From Acidobacteriota bacterium (lineage in GTDB: Bacteria > Acidobacteriota > Vicinamibacteria > Vicinamibacterales > SCN-69-37), in NCBI GenBank assembly GCA_020853395.1, contig JADYYY010000005.1:124001-188000 (forward strand): 64,000 bases of DNA, in the 5' to 3' direction. Positions 11,784 through 55,824 of this stretch are shown here, in pieces. Position 1 is the stretch's first letter, and each line of letters opens with the position of its first letter. Under the pieces are notes generated by a model. It searched no databases. It worked only from the letters and a program-made list of their open reading frames with translations, and was not told where the DNA came from. The position numbers and the translations under genes were made by a program.

Positions 11784-12514
11784 GCGCGTTCCTGCCGCCT
11801 GCGGCGTCGGCGCACGCCGCGCAGATCGATCTCGTCCTGACGCTGGTGCACGTCCTCATGGCCGTGCTCTTCGCCGGCTGGGGGCTGTACTTCGTGTGGG
11901 CGCTGATTCGCTTCCGGCGCGCCCGACAGCCGCGCGCGAATCCGGCGGGCGCCGCCGCCGGCTGGGTGCTCGGCGTCGAGGCCGGAGTCGTCGCCGCCGA
12001 AGCCGTGCTGCTCGTGGTGTTCGCGCTGCCGGTCTGGTACGCGCGCACGCGCCCGGACCGCGCCGAGGCCGGCAGCCTGGTGATTCGAGTGGTTGCCGAA
12101 CAGTTCGCGTGGAACGTGCACTATGCCGGCGCGGATGGCCGGTTCGGCCGGACGTCCACCGCGCTCGTCACGTCGGACAACCCGCTCGGGCTCGATCGCC
12201 GCTCGGACGGAGGCGCCGACGACATCGTCGTGCAGAACCAGTTGCACGTGCCGGTCGACCGGCCGGTCGTCGTCGAGTTGTCGAGCAAGGACGTCATCCA
12301 CAGCTTCGGCGTGCCGGCCATGCGCGTGAAGCAGGATGCGATTCCCGGCGCGCGGGCGTCGGTGTCGTTCACGCCGACCGCAGCGGGCACCTACGACATC
12401 GCCTGCTCGCAGTTGTGCGGGCTGGCGCACTTCCGCATGCGCGGCCGCGTCACGGTCGAGCCCGACGCGGACTACCGGCGCTTCCTAATTGAGGAGCGTG
12501 CGGCGTCGCCGTAG
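11780..12514 (+). CDS. ctaC: Heme-copper oxidase subunit II (CuA, no fused cytochrome)
   Basis: 244 residues with two N-terminal TM helices (about 20-44 and 62-86) and a periplasmic cupredoxin domain. CuA ligands are present: His174 (DVIHSFG), Cys209 and Cys213 in CSQLCG, His217 and Met220. The residue between the cysteines that usually is Glu (CSEICG) is Gln here; only its backbone carbonyl binds copper, so the site should still form. The electron-entry aromatic is in EQFAWNV. There is no C-terminal cytochrome c, unlike the other subunit II at 28339. Confidence 0.94.
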   Translation: MSAFLPPAASAHAAQIDLVLTLVHVLMAVLFAGWGLYFVWALIRFRRARQPRANPAGAAAGWVLGVEAGVVAAEAVLLVVFALPVWYARTRPDRAEAGSLVIRVVAEQFAWNVHYAGADGRFGRTSTALVTSDNPLGLDRRSDGGADDIVVQNQLHVPVDRPVVVELSSKDVIHSFGVPAMRVKQDAIPGARASVSFTPTAAGTYDIACSQLCGLAHFRMRGRVTVEPDADYRRFLIEERAASP

Positions 12515-12521
12515 GCCCACG

Positions 12522-13370
12522 ATGACGATCGATCCGCGATCGGCGCTCGTCATCGCGTGTTTCGCCGCGAGCTGGCTCACGGTGCCGCCGGGCACGGTCG
12601 CGTTCGCACCGTCGCCGCTCGAGCGCGCGTTCGCCTACGTCGCCGACTACGAATCGTCGCTCCGATACCTGATCGCCGACGAGACGTCGGAGCAACGGGT
12701 GGCTGTCGCGGAGCGGCCGGACGATCCGATCGAGCGCCGGACGACGCGCGGCGAGATGTTCCTGACGTATCTCTCGACGGAACGCCACTGGTCGGTCGTC
12801 CACGACATCGCGTTCGTCGACGATGAGCCGGTGACCGTGCGGCCGGATCTCACGGCGCTGATGCGCGAGTCGGAGATCTCGTCGATCGCGCGCGCCGTGT
12901 TCGCGCTCAACGCGCGGTACAACCTCGGGCCCGTCGTCCGGAACTTCAACGATCCCTTCCTGGCGCTGATGCCGTTCAGCGAGCCTCGGCGCCGGGACTT
13001 CCGTTTCTCGACCAGGATCCGTCCCGAAGCGGCACCGAGCGACCGCCGGGTGGCGACGATCGCGTTCAACGAGCGCGGCCGCCCCACGCTCGTCCGCGAT
13101 ACGCGCGGGCGGCCAGTCTTTTCGCGCGGCGAGGTCGACGTGGACGCCGGCACCGGCCGCGTGCTGCGGACGCGCATCGAGCTGAGCCACGACGGCATCC
13201 ATGCGGTGCTGTCCACGACGTACTCGCACGACGCGCGGCTGGACGTCTGGGTACCGACCCGCTTCGTCGAGCGCTACGCGTCGCATCGCGACGGCCGGGC
13301 GCTCGTCACGACGTGCGTGTCGGAGTACGCGAACTACCGCCGCTTCGAAGCGACCACGCGCCTCCGCTGA
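12522..13370 (+). CDS. Secreted protein of an unnamed family (copy 1 of 3)
   Basis: 282 residues with an N-terminal hydrophobic signal (about 8-28) and a beta-rich body without recognisable catalytic motif. It is a divergent paralog of the products at 50305-51186 and 54901-55824. Shared landmarks are an N-terminal helix with Y-x-x-S/L...E, an ARYN/ARFN box near the middle, RPTL or RPSL before a short loop, a V/WID-x-x-T-G segment followed by R-T, and a terminal F/Y-D-x-R-x-x-x-x-V-P pattern. The ATG at 12522 lies seven bases after the oxidase subunit II stop, so it is probably co-transcribed. Function unknown; a lipid- or lipoprotein-handling beta fold is only a guess. Confidence 0.8.
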   Translation: MTIDPRSALVIACFAASWLTVPPGTVAFAPSPLERAFAYVADYESSLRYLIADETSEQRVAVAERPDDPIERRTTRGEMFLTYLSTERHWSVVHDIAFVDDEPVTVRPDLTALMRESEISSIARAVFALNARYNLGPVVRNFNDPFLALMPFSEPRRRDFRFSTRIRPEAAPSDRRVATIAFNERGRPTLVRDTRGRPVFSRGEVDVDAGTGRVLRTRIELSHDGIHAVLSTTYSHDARLDVWVPTRFVERYASHRDGRALVTTCVSEYANYRRFEATTRLR

Positions 13371-46963: not shown

Positions 46964-47647
46964 TCACCGGGACGGATGGGCTGTCAACCTCGCGGGCTCG
47001 CCCGCGGTGTCACGCTCGAGAAGATCCAGGAGCTCGCCGGCGTCGCGCAGCACGCGCGCCGCGCCCTCGAACGTCGTGCCCCTCGTCAGCGCCGTGGGCA
47101 CGACGACGCACGGGACGCCCGCGAGGCGGGCGGCGCGAAGACCGCGCTCGGAGTCCTCGATCGCCAGGCACTCCTCCGGCCGGCAGCCGCTGCGCTCCAC
47201 CGCCTTCAGGTACAGCTCGGGGTCGGGCTTCACGCGCGTGACGTCGCTCGCCGTGAGGATGAAATCGAAGTACGGCAGCAGGCCCGTGGTCTCGTGGATC
47301 GTCTCGAAGTGATCCAGGCGTGAGCTCGTCACGACGCCCATCGTGAATCGGCCATGGAGGGCCTGCAGGACGCGCGCGACGCCGTCGATGAGGAGCGGCG
47401 CGTCACGCAGCCGCTGCGCGTAGCGCGTGTTCCGCACGTCGCGCAGCCGCTCCACCTCGTGGCCGGGCAGGCCGCGCGCTTCCGCGAGGTGCCAGGCGCC
47501 GCGCCCCTGCAGGAGGAAGAGATCGTGGTAGAGCGGCGGCGTCAGCTCGACGTCGACCGTGGCCAGCACGTCCCGCGTGACCTCGTAGTAGATCTGCTCC
47601 GTATCGACGAGCACGCCGTCGTTGTCCCAGAGAATCGCCTTCGTCAT
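46964..47647 (-). CDS. HAD-IA hydrolase, beta-phosphoglucomutase-like
   Basis: 227 residues: motif I AILWDNDGVLVDTE (Asp-x-Asp), cap domain, motif II VVTSSRL, motif III VKPDPELYLKA, motif IV IEDSERGLRAARLAG. Both Asp residues of motif I are present, so phosphatase or phosphoglucomutase-type activity is likely. The ATG at 47647 is preferred; the GTG just before it would add one residue. 98 bases to the downstream isomerase, same strand. Confidence 0.9.
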   Translation of the reverse strand: MTKAILWDNDGVLVDTEQIYYEVTRDVLATVDVELTPPLYHDLFLLQGRGAWHLAEARGLPGHEVERLRDVRNTRYAQRLRDAPLLIDGVARVLQALHGRFTMGVVTSSRLDHFETIHETTGLLPYFDFILTASDVTRVKPDPELYLKAVERSGCRPEECLAIEDSERGLRAARLAGVPCVVVPTALTRGTTFEGAARVLRDAGELLDLLERDTAGEPARLTAHPSR

Positions 47648-47723
47648 CACTTCGGATATTGTCTCTCAGCGCGCGCGCCGCGGCACGCTTCCGCGACGAC
47701 GGCGCCCATTGCGGAGCACACGC

Positions 47724-49463
47724 GTGAGCGAATTCGAATCGCACTGGGACGACACGGGGGCGCTGCTCGACGCCGCGCCCCGCTGGGCACGGTATCGGCG
47801 GGACATGCTCTCGGCGTTCCCCGCGCCGTACCGATCGGAGTCCGACCCGCTGCCGGGCGCCATCGCCGACGCCGTGCGGCGGATCGACGAGCTGCGGCCG
47901 GAGCCGCTCGGCCCCGCCTTCCTCGGCAGCGACCCGTCGCTGTCGATCGACTTCGACGCCGTGAAGCGCGCGGCCATCCCGGCGGCGATGGCGGATCCGG
48001 CCGACGTCGTCCGCGACGTCGTGAACCTGTTCCAGGGCGCCCCGAACTGGGGCCATCCGCTCACGATGTGCAACGTCGTGCCGCAGCCGAACACGGTCGC
48101 GATCATCGCGTCCATGCTCGCGCAGGTGTACTCGCTGAACATCCTCGAAGGCGAGTACGCCTGGAACGTGCACCGCGCCGAGCTCGAGAGCGCCGCGATG
48201 CTCGCCGGCGCGTTCGGGTGGGACCCGGCGCGGGCCGGCGGCATCTACACGTATGGCGGCTCGGGCTGCTGGACGTATGCCGTGAAGTACGGGCTCACGC
48301 GCGTGCTGCGCGGATCGCGGCAGCGGGGCGTGCGGACCGACGCGAAGGTGCTCTGCTCCCAGCAGGCGCACTACACGATGCAGAACAGCACGGACTGGAC
48401 CGGCCTCGGCATGGACAACGTCATCCGAATCCGGACGGACGTCGACACGAACGCGATGGATCTCGCGCACCTGGAGGAGGTGCTGCGCGATCTCACCGCC
48501 CGCGCCGTGCCGATCGCCGCCGTCGTCTGCACGATGGGGACGACCGACGCGAACGCCTTCGATCCGGCCGACAAGGTGCGCGCGCTGCTGGATCGCCATC
48601 CCAACGCCGAGCCTTACGGCCCGGCCTTGCTCTACTGCGATGCGGTCGTCGGCTGGTCGTGGGCGCTGTTCCGGCAGTACGACTTCGACGTGAACCCGCT
48701 CGGCTTCTCGGACGACGCGCTCGCGCTGATCCGCCGGGTGGCCACGGCAGCGTCGACGATCCAGCACGCCGATGCCGTCGGCGTCGACTTCCACAAGGTG
48801 GGCTGGACGCCGTACGGCAGCAGCGTCTTCGTGTACCGCGACGCCGACGAGTTCCAGTCCCTGCTGAGCCGTCCGCTGTCGCCCTACCTGCAGGCCCGAT
48901 CGCCGTACAACCCGCTCGACTACACGCTGGAGGTGTCGCGCCCCGCGACGGGATCGCTCGCCGGCTGGGCTACGCTCCGCTACCTCGGCCTCGAGGGCTT
49001 CCAGTCGATCCTCGGCGGCATCATGGAGACCAAGGCGTACCTCCGGCGTCTGCTGTTCGACGCCGAGACGCTCGTCTGCGCCAACCCGGACGACTACGGG
49101 TTGTGCACGCTGTTCCGCGCCTATCCGCGCGGCGTCGACGGCAACGCGCAGTTCGAGCGCGAGCTGACGGATCCGTCGGCGCGCGACGCGCTCATCCGCC
49201 ACAACCAGCTCACGCGCGCGATCGGCGATCGGCTGTGGGAGTGGTTCCGCGCCGGCAAGCGCATCGACGGCCTGCACACGCCGTACATCAGCTTCAGCAC
49301 CGGCTTCCGCGTGACCGAGTACAACCGCGACGCCGCCGATCCGGATGCCGTCGTGTTCGCGCTCAAGATCTTCCCGATGAACGTGCACATCCACCCGAAG
49401 CTCATGCGCCACGTGCTCGACTGCGTGCTGGCGGCGCGCGACGAGGTGATGGAGGACGCTTGA
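47724..49463 (+). CDS. Group II pyridoxal-phosphate decarboxylase
   Basis: 579 residues of the glutamate/aromatic-amino-acid decarboxylase group. The PLP Lys358 is in VDFHKVGWTPYG, GGSGCWTYAVKYG and QAHYTMQNS contact the cofactor phosphate and ring, and LLYCDAVVGWSWA holds the pyridine-binding Asp. It is longer than most family members (about 470-510). The amino-acid substrate is not readable. The GTG at 47724 with GGAG eight bases upstream gives the conserved N-terminus. It is a single gene with no transporter or antiporter beside it. Confidence 0.9.
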   Translation: MSEFESHWDDTGALLDAAPRWARYRRDMLSAFPAPYRSESDPLPGAIADAVRRIDELRPEPLGPAFLGSDPSLSIDFDAVKRAAIPAAMADPADVVRDVVNLFQGAPNWGHPLTMCNVVPQPNTVAIIASMLAQVYSLNILEGEYAWNVHRAELESAAMLAGAFGWDPARAGGIYTYGGSGCWTYAVKYGLTRVLRGSRQRGVRTDAKVLCSQQAHYTMQNSTDWTGLGMDNVIRIRTDVDTNAMDLAHLEEVLRDLTARAVPIAAVVCTMGTTDANAFDPADKVRALLDRHPNAEPYGPALLYCDAVVGWSWALFRQYDFDVNPLGFSDDALALIRRVATAASTIQHADAVGVDFHKVGWTPYGSSVFVYRDADEFQSLLSRPLSPYLQARSPYNPLDYTLEVSRPATGSLAGWATLRYLGLEGFQSILGGIMETKAYLRRLLFDAETLVCANPDDYGLCTLFRAYPRGVDGNAQFERELTDPSARDALIRHNQLTRAIGDRLWEWFRAGKRIDGLHTPYISFSTGFRVTEYNRDAADPDAVVFALKIFPMNVHIHPKLMRHVLDCVLAARDEVMEDA

Positions 49464-49622
49464 CGTGCCCGGCCACCTCTCGGCCTGGCTCGATTCGGGT
49501 GGAAGGTCGTCCGCGGCGCTTGCGGCTTGGAGGATCGCTCGGCCGACGGCGAGCGGCTTGTTTCTTCTGCACGCTGGGCCGCTCTTGCACCGACACTGAG
49601 TAGAGTAAGAACAGGAGGGCAA

Positions 49623-50308
49623 GTGCGAGGGCGGCTCGTCGTGTTCCTCGGGTTCCTGTGCGTCGCCTTCCTGTCGAATGCGCCGGCGGCGTCGCGACGC
49701 GAACAACAGGCCGCGCCGTTCCGCTCCGCGACGGAGATCGTGCGCGTCGATGTGAGCGTCCTCGACAGAGAGCGGCGCCCGGTGCGCGGGTGGACGGCCG
49801 CCGATTTCACGCTGCTGCTCGACGGGCAGCCGCAGAGGATCGTCGCCTTCGAGGAGGTCGGTGCGGCCGGTCGAGGATCGGAGCGGCGCCCGGGCTCCGA
49901 TCAGATCGCGGCCGCGGATCTCGCGACCAGCGACCGCACGGCGGCCCGCCTGCTCGTCGTCGTGCTCGACGACTACAGCCTCGCCGAGGCCCGCGCGCTT
50001 CCGGGCGACGTCGGCCAGGCGAGGAGTGCCGCGCTGGCCGCACTCGACAGCCTCGACGCAGACGACCTCGGTGCGATCGTCTTCGCCTCGACCGGAGGAG
50101 TGCCGGAAGGGTTCACCACCGATCGTGGGAGGCTGCGGGATGCGATCTCACGCCTCACGGTCGTGCCGGACTCTCCGGTGAAGGTCGAGGGCATGACGTG
50201 ACGCTGCCCCTCAGTTCGCTGGCCGTCGGCCCGCACGTGCTCACGATGGACGTCCGCAGCGGCGCTCGGGCCGAATCGCGCAGCGTGCGATTCGAGGTCG
50301 CAGCGTGA
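49623..50308 (+). pseudogene. VWFA-related acidobacterial secreted protein, internal deletion with frameshift
   Basis: The reading frame starts at a GTG with AGGAGGG three bases upstream and a signal peptide (VVFLGFLCVAFLSNAPAA). It continues with the family's FRSATEIVRVDVSVLDRE and DFTLLLDGQ opening and the start of the VWA domain (LLVVVLDDYS), but stops at 50201 after 192 residues. The family's C-terminal end (LPLSSLAVGPHVLTMDV...VRFEVAA) follows in another frame up to 50308. The whole middle part, several hundred residues in relatives, is absent. So this is a deletion remnant. The next gene overlaps its end by four bases (GTGA). Confidence 0.85.
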
Positions 50309-51186
50309 CGTGGCGCCTGTCGCTCGTCGGGCTCGCGGCTGCCTCGGTAGTGCGTGTGACGACGTACGCCCAGACACCAGCGCCACCCAATCCGGTACTG
50401 GACGACCTCGTCTCCAAGGCGGCGGCCTACGTGGACCGCTACTACGAAGCCATGTCCCGGCTGACGTTCGACGAGCGCTACGTCCAGGACATCGTCGTCG
50501 CTCGCGTCATGTCTCCGATGCCTCCCGGGCGGGCTTCCGCGCCGAGCCGGCCGACGGGCGAGCAGCAGCGCGTGCTCCGTTCGGAGTGCATCGTCCTCCG
50601 CGTCGGTCCGCCGTTCGAGTGGCGGTTCTATCGAAACGTCTTCGAGGTGGACGGGCTCGGGGTCAAGGATCGCAACGCGAGGCTCGTCACGCTGCTCCAG
50701 CAGCCGGCCGAGAGCGCCGTCCGTGCCGCGGAGCGGATTGCCGAGGAGAGCGCGCGCTACAACATCAGCAACGTGGGCCGCGTGCTGAACGAGCCGGCCC
50801 TCCCGTTCGTGTTCCTGAGGGACGCCGTCAGGAGCAGGGTCCAGCTCACCCTGCAACGGCGCGAGGACAACGTCTGGATCGTGGCGTTCACCGAGCACGG
50901 ACGGCCGTCGCTGTTCCGCCACAACCGCACGCTCGACAACCCGAGCTCCGGCCGCTTCTGGATCGACGCCTCGACGGGCGAGGTCCAGCGTGCCGAGCAC
51001 GTGGTCTCGCCGTTTCCGCTCAAGGCGACGTTCACCACGGTCTTCCGGCACGACGCGCGCTTCGGTGTCGCCGTGCCGCACGAGATGCGGGAACTGCTGT
51101 CGACCGGCCCTGAAGCCGCGGCCCGGCGCGTGTCCGGCGTGGCGACGTACGAGAACTACCGCGAGTTCCGGATCACCGCCGGGTGA
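50305..51186 (+). CDS. Secreted protein of an unnamed family (copy 2 of 3)
   Basis: 293 residues with a signal sequence (SLVGLAAASVVRVTTYAQ) and a beta-rich body. It is closely related to the product of 54901-55824: shared segments include RVGPPFEW, VFEVDGLGVKDR, ARYNISNVGRVLN, RPSLFRHN, WIDASTGEV and VPHEMRE. A more distant relative is 12522-13370. The first GTG at 50305 overlaps the stop of the VWFA remnant, so the pair was probably an operon. No enzyme motif; function unknown. Confidence 0.82.
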   Translation: MTWRLSLVGLAAASVVRVTTYAQTPAPPNPVLDDLVSKAAAYVDRYYEAMSRLTFDERYVQDIVVARVMSPMPPGRASAPSRPTGEQQRVLRSECIVLRVGPPFEWRFYRNVFEVDGLGVKDRNARLVTLLQQPAESAVRAAERIAEESARYNISNVGRVLNEPALPFVFLRDAVRSRVQLTLQRREDNVWIVAFTEHGRPSLFRHNRTLDNPSSGRFWIDASTGEVQRAEHVVSPFPLKATFTTVFRHDARFGVAVPHEMRELLSTGPEAAARRVSGVATYENYREFRITAG

Positions 51187-51188
51187 CC

Positions 51189-51899
51189 TCAGAGATTCGC
51201 CTGGATCGCCTGCTTCGTCCGCTCGATCAGCGCGGGCAGCCGCTTCTCGTCGTACTCGCGCGTGTCGATCGGCTCGCCGATGAACACGTCCACGCGTCCC
51301 GGCCGCGGCGCGAGCGTCGTCTTCGGCAAGAGCGCGAACGTGCCCCGGATCGTCACCGGCACGATCGGCACGCCGGCCTTCATGGCGATCTTGAACGTGC
51401 CGGGCTTGAACTCCTGGAGCCGGCCATCCGGTGTGCGCGTGCCTTCCGGAAAGACGGCGAGCGACGTGCCGGCCTTCAGGCCCTCGATCACCCGGCGGAG
51501 GCTCTTCGCCGTCCGCCGCGCGTCGCCGCGATCGACCGGGAAGTTGCCCGACGTCCACAGGTGCCACCCCATGAACGGCACGTAGAACAGCTCCTTCTTC
51601 GCCATGATCTTGAACTGGTGCGGCAGGTAGGCGAAGAGCGCGGGCGTGTCGATGAGGCTCGCGTGGTTGGCCATGTAGACGTAGCTCCGGCCCGCCGCGA
51701 CGCGCTCGGCGCCGTGCACCCGGATCCCTGCGCCGATCGTGAGCGCGACCATCCGGCACCACCATCGCGCGCATCCGTGCTGCAGCTCCCCCGTACGGTC
51801 GAACGGCCACAGCGCGAGCGAGATCGTGCCCATGACGACGGTCTCGACGTACCAGAGGAGGTTGGCGACGGGGGCCCAGAGGTAGACGAAGACCTTCAC
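51189..51899 (-). CDS. plsC: 1-acyl-sn-glycerol-3-phosphate acyltransferase
   Basis: 236 residues: one or two N-terminal hydrophobic segments, then the acyltransferase motifs NHASLIDTP (catalytic His/Asp), VDRGDARR, VFPEGTRTPDG and PIVPVTIRG. It makes phosphatidic acid at the inner membrane. The start is the GTG at 51899. The frame is open far upstream, but that stretch lies antisense to the divergent penicillin-binding protein. It converges on copy 2 of the secreted family with two bases between stops. Confidence 0.92.
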   Translation of the reverse strand: MKVFVYLWAPVANLLWYVETVVMGTISLALWPFDRTGELQHGCARWWCRMVALTIGAGIRVHGAERVAAGRSYVYMANHASLIDTPALFAYLPHQFKIMAKKELFYVPFMGWHLWTSGNFPVDRGDARRTAKSLRRVIEGLKAGTSLAVFPEGTRTPDGRLQEFKPGTFKIAMKAGVPIVPVTIRGTFALLPKTTLAPRPGRVDVFIGEPIDTREYDEKRLPALIERTKQAIQANL

Positions 51900-54900: not shown

Positions 54901-55824
54901 TCACTTCCCCTGGCCGGCCAGCGCTTCGTCCGTCCGCACCTCGAAGCGCCGGACGTTGCTGTAGCGGGCGACGCCGTCGAGGCTGCGGATGGACGCCGTC
55001 GAGCCCGAGATCTGCTCGTGCATCTCGACCGGGAGCGCGATCCCGGAGCGATCGTCGAAGCGGAACTGCGTCGTGATCGAGACCCTGAGCCTCGGCGGCG
55101 TCAGCACGTGCTCGGTTCGCAGGACGACGCCGGTATCGACGTCGATCCAGATTCGCCCGCCGCTCGGGTTGTCCTGCGTCGAATTGTGCTGGAACAGCGT
55201 GGGCCGCTCGGTCTCCCGGTACCTCAACACCCACACGTTCCGGCCGCCGATCTCGTCGCGACGCGACACCTCGAACGTGAAGCGTGGCCGCAGCGGCGCC
55301 TGGACGAACAGGATCGGGATGCCGGGCACGTTCAGCGTCCTGCCGACGTCGCTGATGTTGAACCGCGCGCTCTCGTGGTCGATGCGGAGCGCCTGCGCGC
55401 GCGCGACGTCGGCCGGCTGCTGGAAGAGCCGCGCCAGCCGATCCTGCCGGTCGCGCACGGGCCGGCCGTCGACCTCGAACACGTCGCGGAACATCTGCCA
55501 TTCCAGCGGCGGCCCGACACGCACGAGGACCGTATCGGATCGCAGATCGCGACGACGGCCCGGCGCCGTGACGACCTGGGGCCGGCTCTGCGGCGTGACG
55601 GTGACGACGCGGCTGATGCCGGCCACTTCCTGCGAGTAGTCCTCCTGAAGGACCAGGCTGGAGAGCTGGTCGAGGTACCGCGCGGCGTACGCCGCCGCAC
55701 GCGCGGTCACGAGCTCGACCGCCGGCGGCGAGTCCTGGACCGCCGAGCGATCCGGGACGCCGACCGCGGCGTACACGGGCCCGACGATCATCGAGACGAT
55801 GACGAGCGAGCAGCGCTTGGCCAT
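54901..55824 (-). CDS. Secreted protein of an unnamed family (copy 3 of 3)
   Basis: 307 residues with a signal peptide (MAKRCSLVIVSMIVGPVYAAVG) and the same beta-rich body as 50305-51186: LVRVGPPLEW, VFEVDGRPVRDR, ARFNISDVGRTLN, RPTLFQHN, WIDVDTGVV, LPVEMHE. A basic RRRDL patch precedes the first box. No catalytic residues recognised. A TACACT -10-like element lies about 40 bases upstream (55864-55869). It is the last gene of a minus-strand group. Function unknown. Confidence 0.82.
   Translation of the reverse strand: MAKRCSLVIVSMIVGPVYAAVGVPDRSAVQDSPPAVELVTARAAAYAARYLDQLSSLVLQEDYSQEVAGISRVVTVTPQSRPQVVTAPGRRRDLRSDTVLVRVGPPLEWQMFRDVFEVDGRPVRDRQDRLARLFQQPADVARAQALRIDHESARFNISDVGRTLNVPGIPILFVQAPLRPRFTFEVSRRDEIGGRNVWVLRYRETERPTLFQHNSTQDNPSGGRIWIDVDTGVVLRTEHVLTPPRLRVSITTQFRFDDRSGIALPVEMHEQISGSTASIRSLDGVARYSNVRRFEVRTDEALAGQGK

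Follow-up and report, generated by a model that had tools for sequence, protein, structure and literature searches.

A VWFA-family gene probably decaying after an internal deletion, and its intact neighbour, in an Acidobacteriota genome

In multi-copy gene families of bacteria, pseudogenes that arise by internal deletion retain both ends of the gene and lose the reading frame, while other copies stay intact. The VWFA-family copy described here is probably of this kind, and it is unusual only in that two relatives have lost comparable parts in frame. The family model to which it is compared, NCBIfam TIGR03436 (acidobact_VWFA), shares with it positions 2-140 at the front, and the tail of the gene corresponds to the extreme C-terminus of full-length members; however, the copy has nothing that corresponds to the model beyond about position 140, its score does not reach the cut-off, and its tail lies in a different frame.

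The window, i.e., the whole stretch of DNA that was analysed, has a length of 64,000 nucleotides (G000:C5:124001-188000) and belongs to a genome of 4.28 Mb in 21 contigs with a completeness of 99.92%. The VWFA remnant sits between an upstream gene for a PLP-dependent decarboxylase (47622-49463; Pfam Pyridoxal_deC, E 4e-15) and an intact downstream gene of 293 residues. We consider it probable that this VWFA copy suffered a private internal deletion and is now a decaying pseudogene. The neighbour is intact and is probably served by its own ribosome-binding site.

Remaining parts of the gene and the missing middle

The front part is an open reading frame on the forward strand (49623-50201), running from GTG 49623 to TGA 50199-50201 and encoding 192 amino acids plus stop, with a signal-like hydrophobic N-terminus, an N-terminal domain and the first part of a VWA domain. 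The Shine-Dalgarno sequence AGGAGG (49613-49618, forward strand) ends four bases before the GTG; its duplex with the 16S tail has an energy of -10.5 kcal/mol, which was equalled or exceeded by 0.75% of 800 random GTGs. The strong ribosome-binding site described in the initial annotation is found again, and the signal peptide described there corresponds to the signal-like N-terminus. Because both the site and the signal-like sequence are intact, a fragment of 192 residues may be translated and exported; lacking about half of the VWA domain, it probably does not fold into one.

Against TIGR03436 the front ORF reaches 62.6 bits (E 4.3e-17), or 61.6 bits when the genome is scanned, below the curated cut-off of 81.25 bits, and it covers positions 2-140 (2-145 on the genome scan) of the 324 positions of the model. 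Pfam VWA_2 leaves a trace in this ORF (E 0.16). The 192 codons contain no stop or frame change, and their use is mostly coding-like: among the three forward frames, the front frame has the highest codon-usage score over 49623-50198 and the C-terminal frame over 50198-50305, the score of the front frame being only 0.03 over 50007-50150. The end of the front ORF, VVPDSPVKVEG, was also compared to the DVPDF region and to the C-terminus of other VWFA proteins; the possible match is too short to judge.

The tail (50195-50308, forward strand) holds the last about 35 residues of a VWFA protein in a frame offset by 2. Bases 50195-50305 translate to DVTLPLSSLAVGPHVLTMDVRSGARAESRSVRFEVAA, followed by a stop at 50306-50308. 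Compared to the ORFs of selected VWFA loci, it gave 24 rows at E<=0.05, which represent 19 distinct genes, five having been counted twice where loci overlap. In every one of the 24 rows the match ended no more than 25 residues from the end of the ORF, and the best score was 39.7 bits, compared to a maximum of 26.6 in 200 shuffles.

Ten full-length relatives (653-748 amino acids, stop to stop) were used for alignment. The front is 36-43% and the tail 28-53% identical to them, which indicates that both parts descend from such a gene. On the numbering of C10 (680 amino acids, stop to stop), the front can be aligned up to about residue 224, and the alignment of the tail starts at 648; on that of G072 (716 amino acids), these limits are about 241 and 682. 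About 420-425 residues are therefore absent between the two parts, among them those of roughly half the VWA model and of the greater part of the C-terminal half. Two features of pseudogenes are present: a large part of a conserved domain is missing (about 420 residues), and the reading frame is disrupted relative to intact members, since the frames of front and tail differ by 2. Alignment and frame translations place the deletion junction and frame change in an approximate zone, 50180-50197 on the forward strand; a base-level position would need an ortholog. It had been proposed from the initial reading that the front and the last 35 or so residues of a VWFA protein persist in different frames, and this is borne out, coordinates included. 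The accompanying proposal of an internal deletion in a VWFA-family gene is supported by the TIGR03436 match of the front, the match of the tail and the about 420 residues missing between them.

From the fact that both ends match full-length relatives of 653-748 residues while the middle is absent, we infer the following course of events. A VWFA-family copy would have undergone an internal deletion of about 1.27 kb, with a length not a multiple of three, by which roughly the second half of its VWA domain and almost the whole C-terminal half were removed and the last 35 codons were shifted to another frame. The remainder would be a decaying gene (pseudogene), presumably without its former function, that kept an intact ribosome-binding site and signal-like sequence. 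It should be noted that an open front of 192 codons with mostly coding-like codon use fits a recent deletion and also a gene still in use, and that the very strong ribosome-binding site also speaks against a pseudogene.

An error of assembly or consensus would give a similar picture, if the middle had been lost in assembly or if an in-frame mini-gene had been split by a one-base consensus error. The genome is a 21-contig draft, a multi-copy family can confuse assembly, and reduced genes that are in frame do exist in two other genomes, G035 and G002. However, protein identity between the remnant and its paralogs in the genome is only about 33-43%, too low for the copies to collapse; 49400-51300 contains no direct repeats of more than 21 nt; and the C-terminal half of one paralog, used as a query, found five matches in the genome, each of them within a long VWFA ORF (680-764 amino acids), and no stray piece of a C-terminal half. 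An error of this kind is unlikely.

VWFA copies in the genome and in the order

TIGR03436 matches this genome in 29 places, 24 of them above the cut-off, with a few places lying within one ORF; given so many copies, the loss of one should be tolerated. At least two further broken copies are found in the same genome, one on C6 with a frame change and one on C18, which is middle-only and also has a frame change.

The C18 fragment (L123:3344-4119, G000:C18:22843-23618) comprises about 630 bases of frame-disrupted VWFA sequence. The fragment is in antisense orientation and is flanked by two direct, diverged copies of a glycosyltransferase gene end (29 nt with 97% and 46 nt with 83% identity), as if it had been inserted with a duplication of about 75 bases. 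Its left edge is near the end of the front part of the window gene (C10 residue 224), and both of its edges border a variable linker. It is unlikely to be the lost middle of the window gene: it spans C10 residues 229-404, whereas the gap reaches from about 225 to 647; its own frame is disrupted; and it is placed between glycosyltransferase ends.

The search for orthologs covered one genome at the level of the genus and 14 at the level of the family, both with the downstream protein only, and 162 genomes of the order with either protein; in the order, the best first-look candidates (at most 20 per genome for the VWFA front and at most 14 for the downstream protein) were scored. No ortholog of this VWFA copy was found among the 162 genomes with these best candidates. 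The best matches of the front outside the genome are 36-47% identical, the top score being 94.8 bits versus 92.9 for a paralog within the genome, and those of the downstream protein in family and order are no more than 39% identical versus 46% for the paralog in this genome, in both cases among the best candidates scored. From these comparisons, we judge the top matches in the order to be paralog-like for both genes. A contig scan with the front part pointed to one locus, L092 (44% identity over residues 3-78), which we judged not to be an ortholog; the model of its VWFA protein is unusable (mean pLDDT 33.9), and phmmer found no matches for it in the PDB at E<=0.1. In one table of an earlier publication (PMC3174227), the label 'too divergent' is given to a Solibacter paralog of von Willebrand type A.

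Reduced forms were surveyed among 150 matches listed from the 162 genomes, with open frames of at least 450 amino acids taken as not reduced. There are 14 open frames under 450 amino acids among these matches, and three of the 150 keep both ends without the middle, i.e., the window gene, G035:C37 and G002:C22. A frame change is found in G000:C6 and apparently in G023:C583; four rows are VWA-only (G002:C1, two of G001:C73, and G015:C75), and five are cut by a contig end (G020:C234, G001:C393, G025:C94, G023:C282 and G028:C52).

G035:C37 (315 amino acids, stop to stop) is in frame and adjoins a full-length tandem copy, with which it shares blocks of 80.5% and 72.8% DNA identity, about 1,077 bases being missing between them. 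An array of 8-base repeats, CGCCATCA, lies just 3' of this gene (L125:4577-4664). G002:C22 (324 amino acids, stop to stop) is likewise in frame and consists of the front and the C-terminal end; its junction, judged from the protein sequence, is at LPL, which occurs on both sides in relatives and would fit a short-homology event. Both genes resemble the window copy in retaining front and C-terminal end with the middle missing, whereas they differ from it in frame and end points. The left end points differ among all three; on the right, G035 differs, and the window and G002 resume nearly alike. No gene among the 150 matches listed has the same end points as the window copy. Homologs of the downstream gene (P0002) or of the decarboxylase (P0004) are absent from the fetched flanks of the two genes (L125 and L126). 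Because the G035 and G002 genes are in frame, have other end points and lack the neighbours of the window gene, the three forms look like independent internal deletions rather than a shared short form, as judged by sequence comparison. Together with the broken copies on C18 and C6, the deletions in G035:C37 and G002:C22 make internal loss look like a recurrent accident in the VWFA family.

The same survey bears on the idea that the reduced protein is functional, so that the 192-residue fragment, or a product of front and tail joined by frameshift or restart, would be under selection, for example as a VWFA partner or decoy. The tail-frame GTG at 50198 overlaps the TGA of the front ORF as GTGA (50198-50201, forward strand), a possible restart, and it opens the tail frame; its own site has an energy of -6.4 kcal/mol, and one as good is present at 6.5% of 800 random GTGs. 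This arrangement, the intact 192-codon ORF with its strong ribosome-binding site and the in-frame reduced relatives in two other genomes all favour function. Against it, the end points differ among the three reduced genes, roughly half the VWA model has no counterpart, and among the 150 matches listed no more than three combine both ends with a missing middle, no other match sharing the end points of the window copy. A programmed frameshift joining front and tail was considered and rejected, as inspection of the junction by eye revealed no slippery heptamer. We regard a selected reduced protein as quite unlikely. That two of the three reduced genes among the matches listed are in frame nevertheless argues against decay in every case, since the reduced form may sometimes be kept. 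In a broader version, reduced VWFA genes in which the secretion front is joined to the extreme C-terminal end would arise repeatedly in the order, some being kept as functional mini-proteins, and in the window two successive GTGA restarts would lead into the neighbour; we give this little credence.

The downstream gene and its relation to the remnant

The downstream gene (50305-51186, forward strand, GTG 50305) is intact and encodes a secreted-looking protein of 293 amino acids with no assigned function. Homologs at E<=1e-30 are present in 53 of the 162 genomes of the order, this genome included. The protein matches no Pfam or NCBIfam family at its cut-off, and its structure model, with a mean pLDDT of 49.6, found no match in the PDB at E<=0.001; the model gives a weak hint of a LolA/LolB-like fold. 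Two relatives of the protein are encoded inside the window, at 54901-55824 (reverse strand, 45%) and 12489-13370 (forward strand, 31%), and no VWFA match was found within up to 1.5 kb of either.

The start codon GTG at 50305 and the tail-frame stop share bases in a GTGA (50305-50308), as in coupled gene pairs. The partner in this overlap is the C-terminal frame and not the 192-residue ORF, whose stop is 103 bases from GTG 50305. Coupled pairs may also be recognised by a downstream gene without a ribosome-binding site; here, a Shine-Dalgarno-like site of -7.1 kcal/mol is predicted for the downstream gene itself (4% of 800 random GTGs are equal or better), and translation probably begins from it. 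Ribosomes that restart at GTG 50198 could be carried through the tail and perhaps help the neighbour at 50305; therefore, coupling may persist and would be possible without being required. The initial annotation had the neighbour overlapping the VWFA gene and depending on it for translation: the overlap with the tail-frame stop stands, whereas the dependence is weakened by the separate site and by the 103 bases that follow the 192-residue ORF.

A further explanation is that the remnant has been kept because the downstream gene uses it as promoter, leader and translational coupler. Besides the overlap at 50305-50308, a terminator-like hairpin with a T-rich tail (49535-49558, forward strand) between the decarboxylase gene and the remnant is in line with this idea; the hairpin is a consensus match only, the scan of 49400-51300 giving two overlapping sites, compared to a mean of 0.5 in shuffles. 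In G006, moreover, an intact VWFA ORF abuts the homologous gene as TGATG. Conversely, the neighbour has its own predicted site, and a search limited to sigma-70-type promoters found none in 49400-51300, either before or inside the remnant.

The conservation of the pairing also speaks against such a role. Among 57 homolog loci of the downstream gene (L006-L035 and L065-L091, with an overlap between L027 and L034; flanks of up to 1.5 kb, in part truncated), five have VWFA genes nearby: one upstream on the same strand, two convergent (L033 and L035) and two divergent (L072 and L073). The single upstream case is the one in G006 (L010/L118, G006:C12; same family), where the VWFA ORF, 563 amino acids stop to stop, lies directly upstream. 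Since only one of 57 loci has VWFA directly upstream on the same strand, the VWFA gene and the downstream gene are not a conserved unit. Retention of the remnant for the expression of its neighbour is improbable, and the case for clear control of the intact gene by the remnant is weak.

Turnover of the VWFA family

The most likely view is that the remnant is an ordinary copy undergoing decay within a large, high-turnover family. On a small scale, it illustrates clearly how copies are born and lost in the large secreted VWFA family of Acidobacteria. It also carries a warning for annotation: the 192-residue ORF could pass as an intact short VWA protein, and as a functional operon partner of its neighbour. 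If it were true that the recurrent reduced forms are functional, the finding would be of greater importance.
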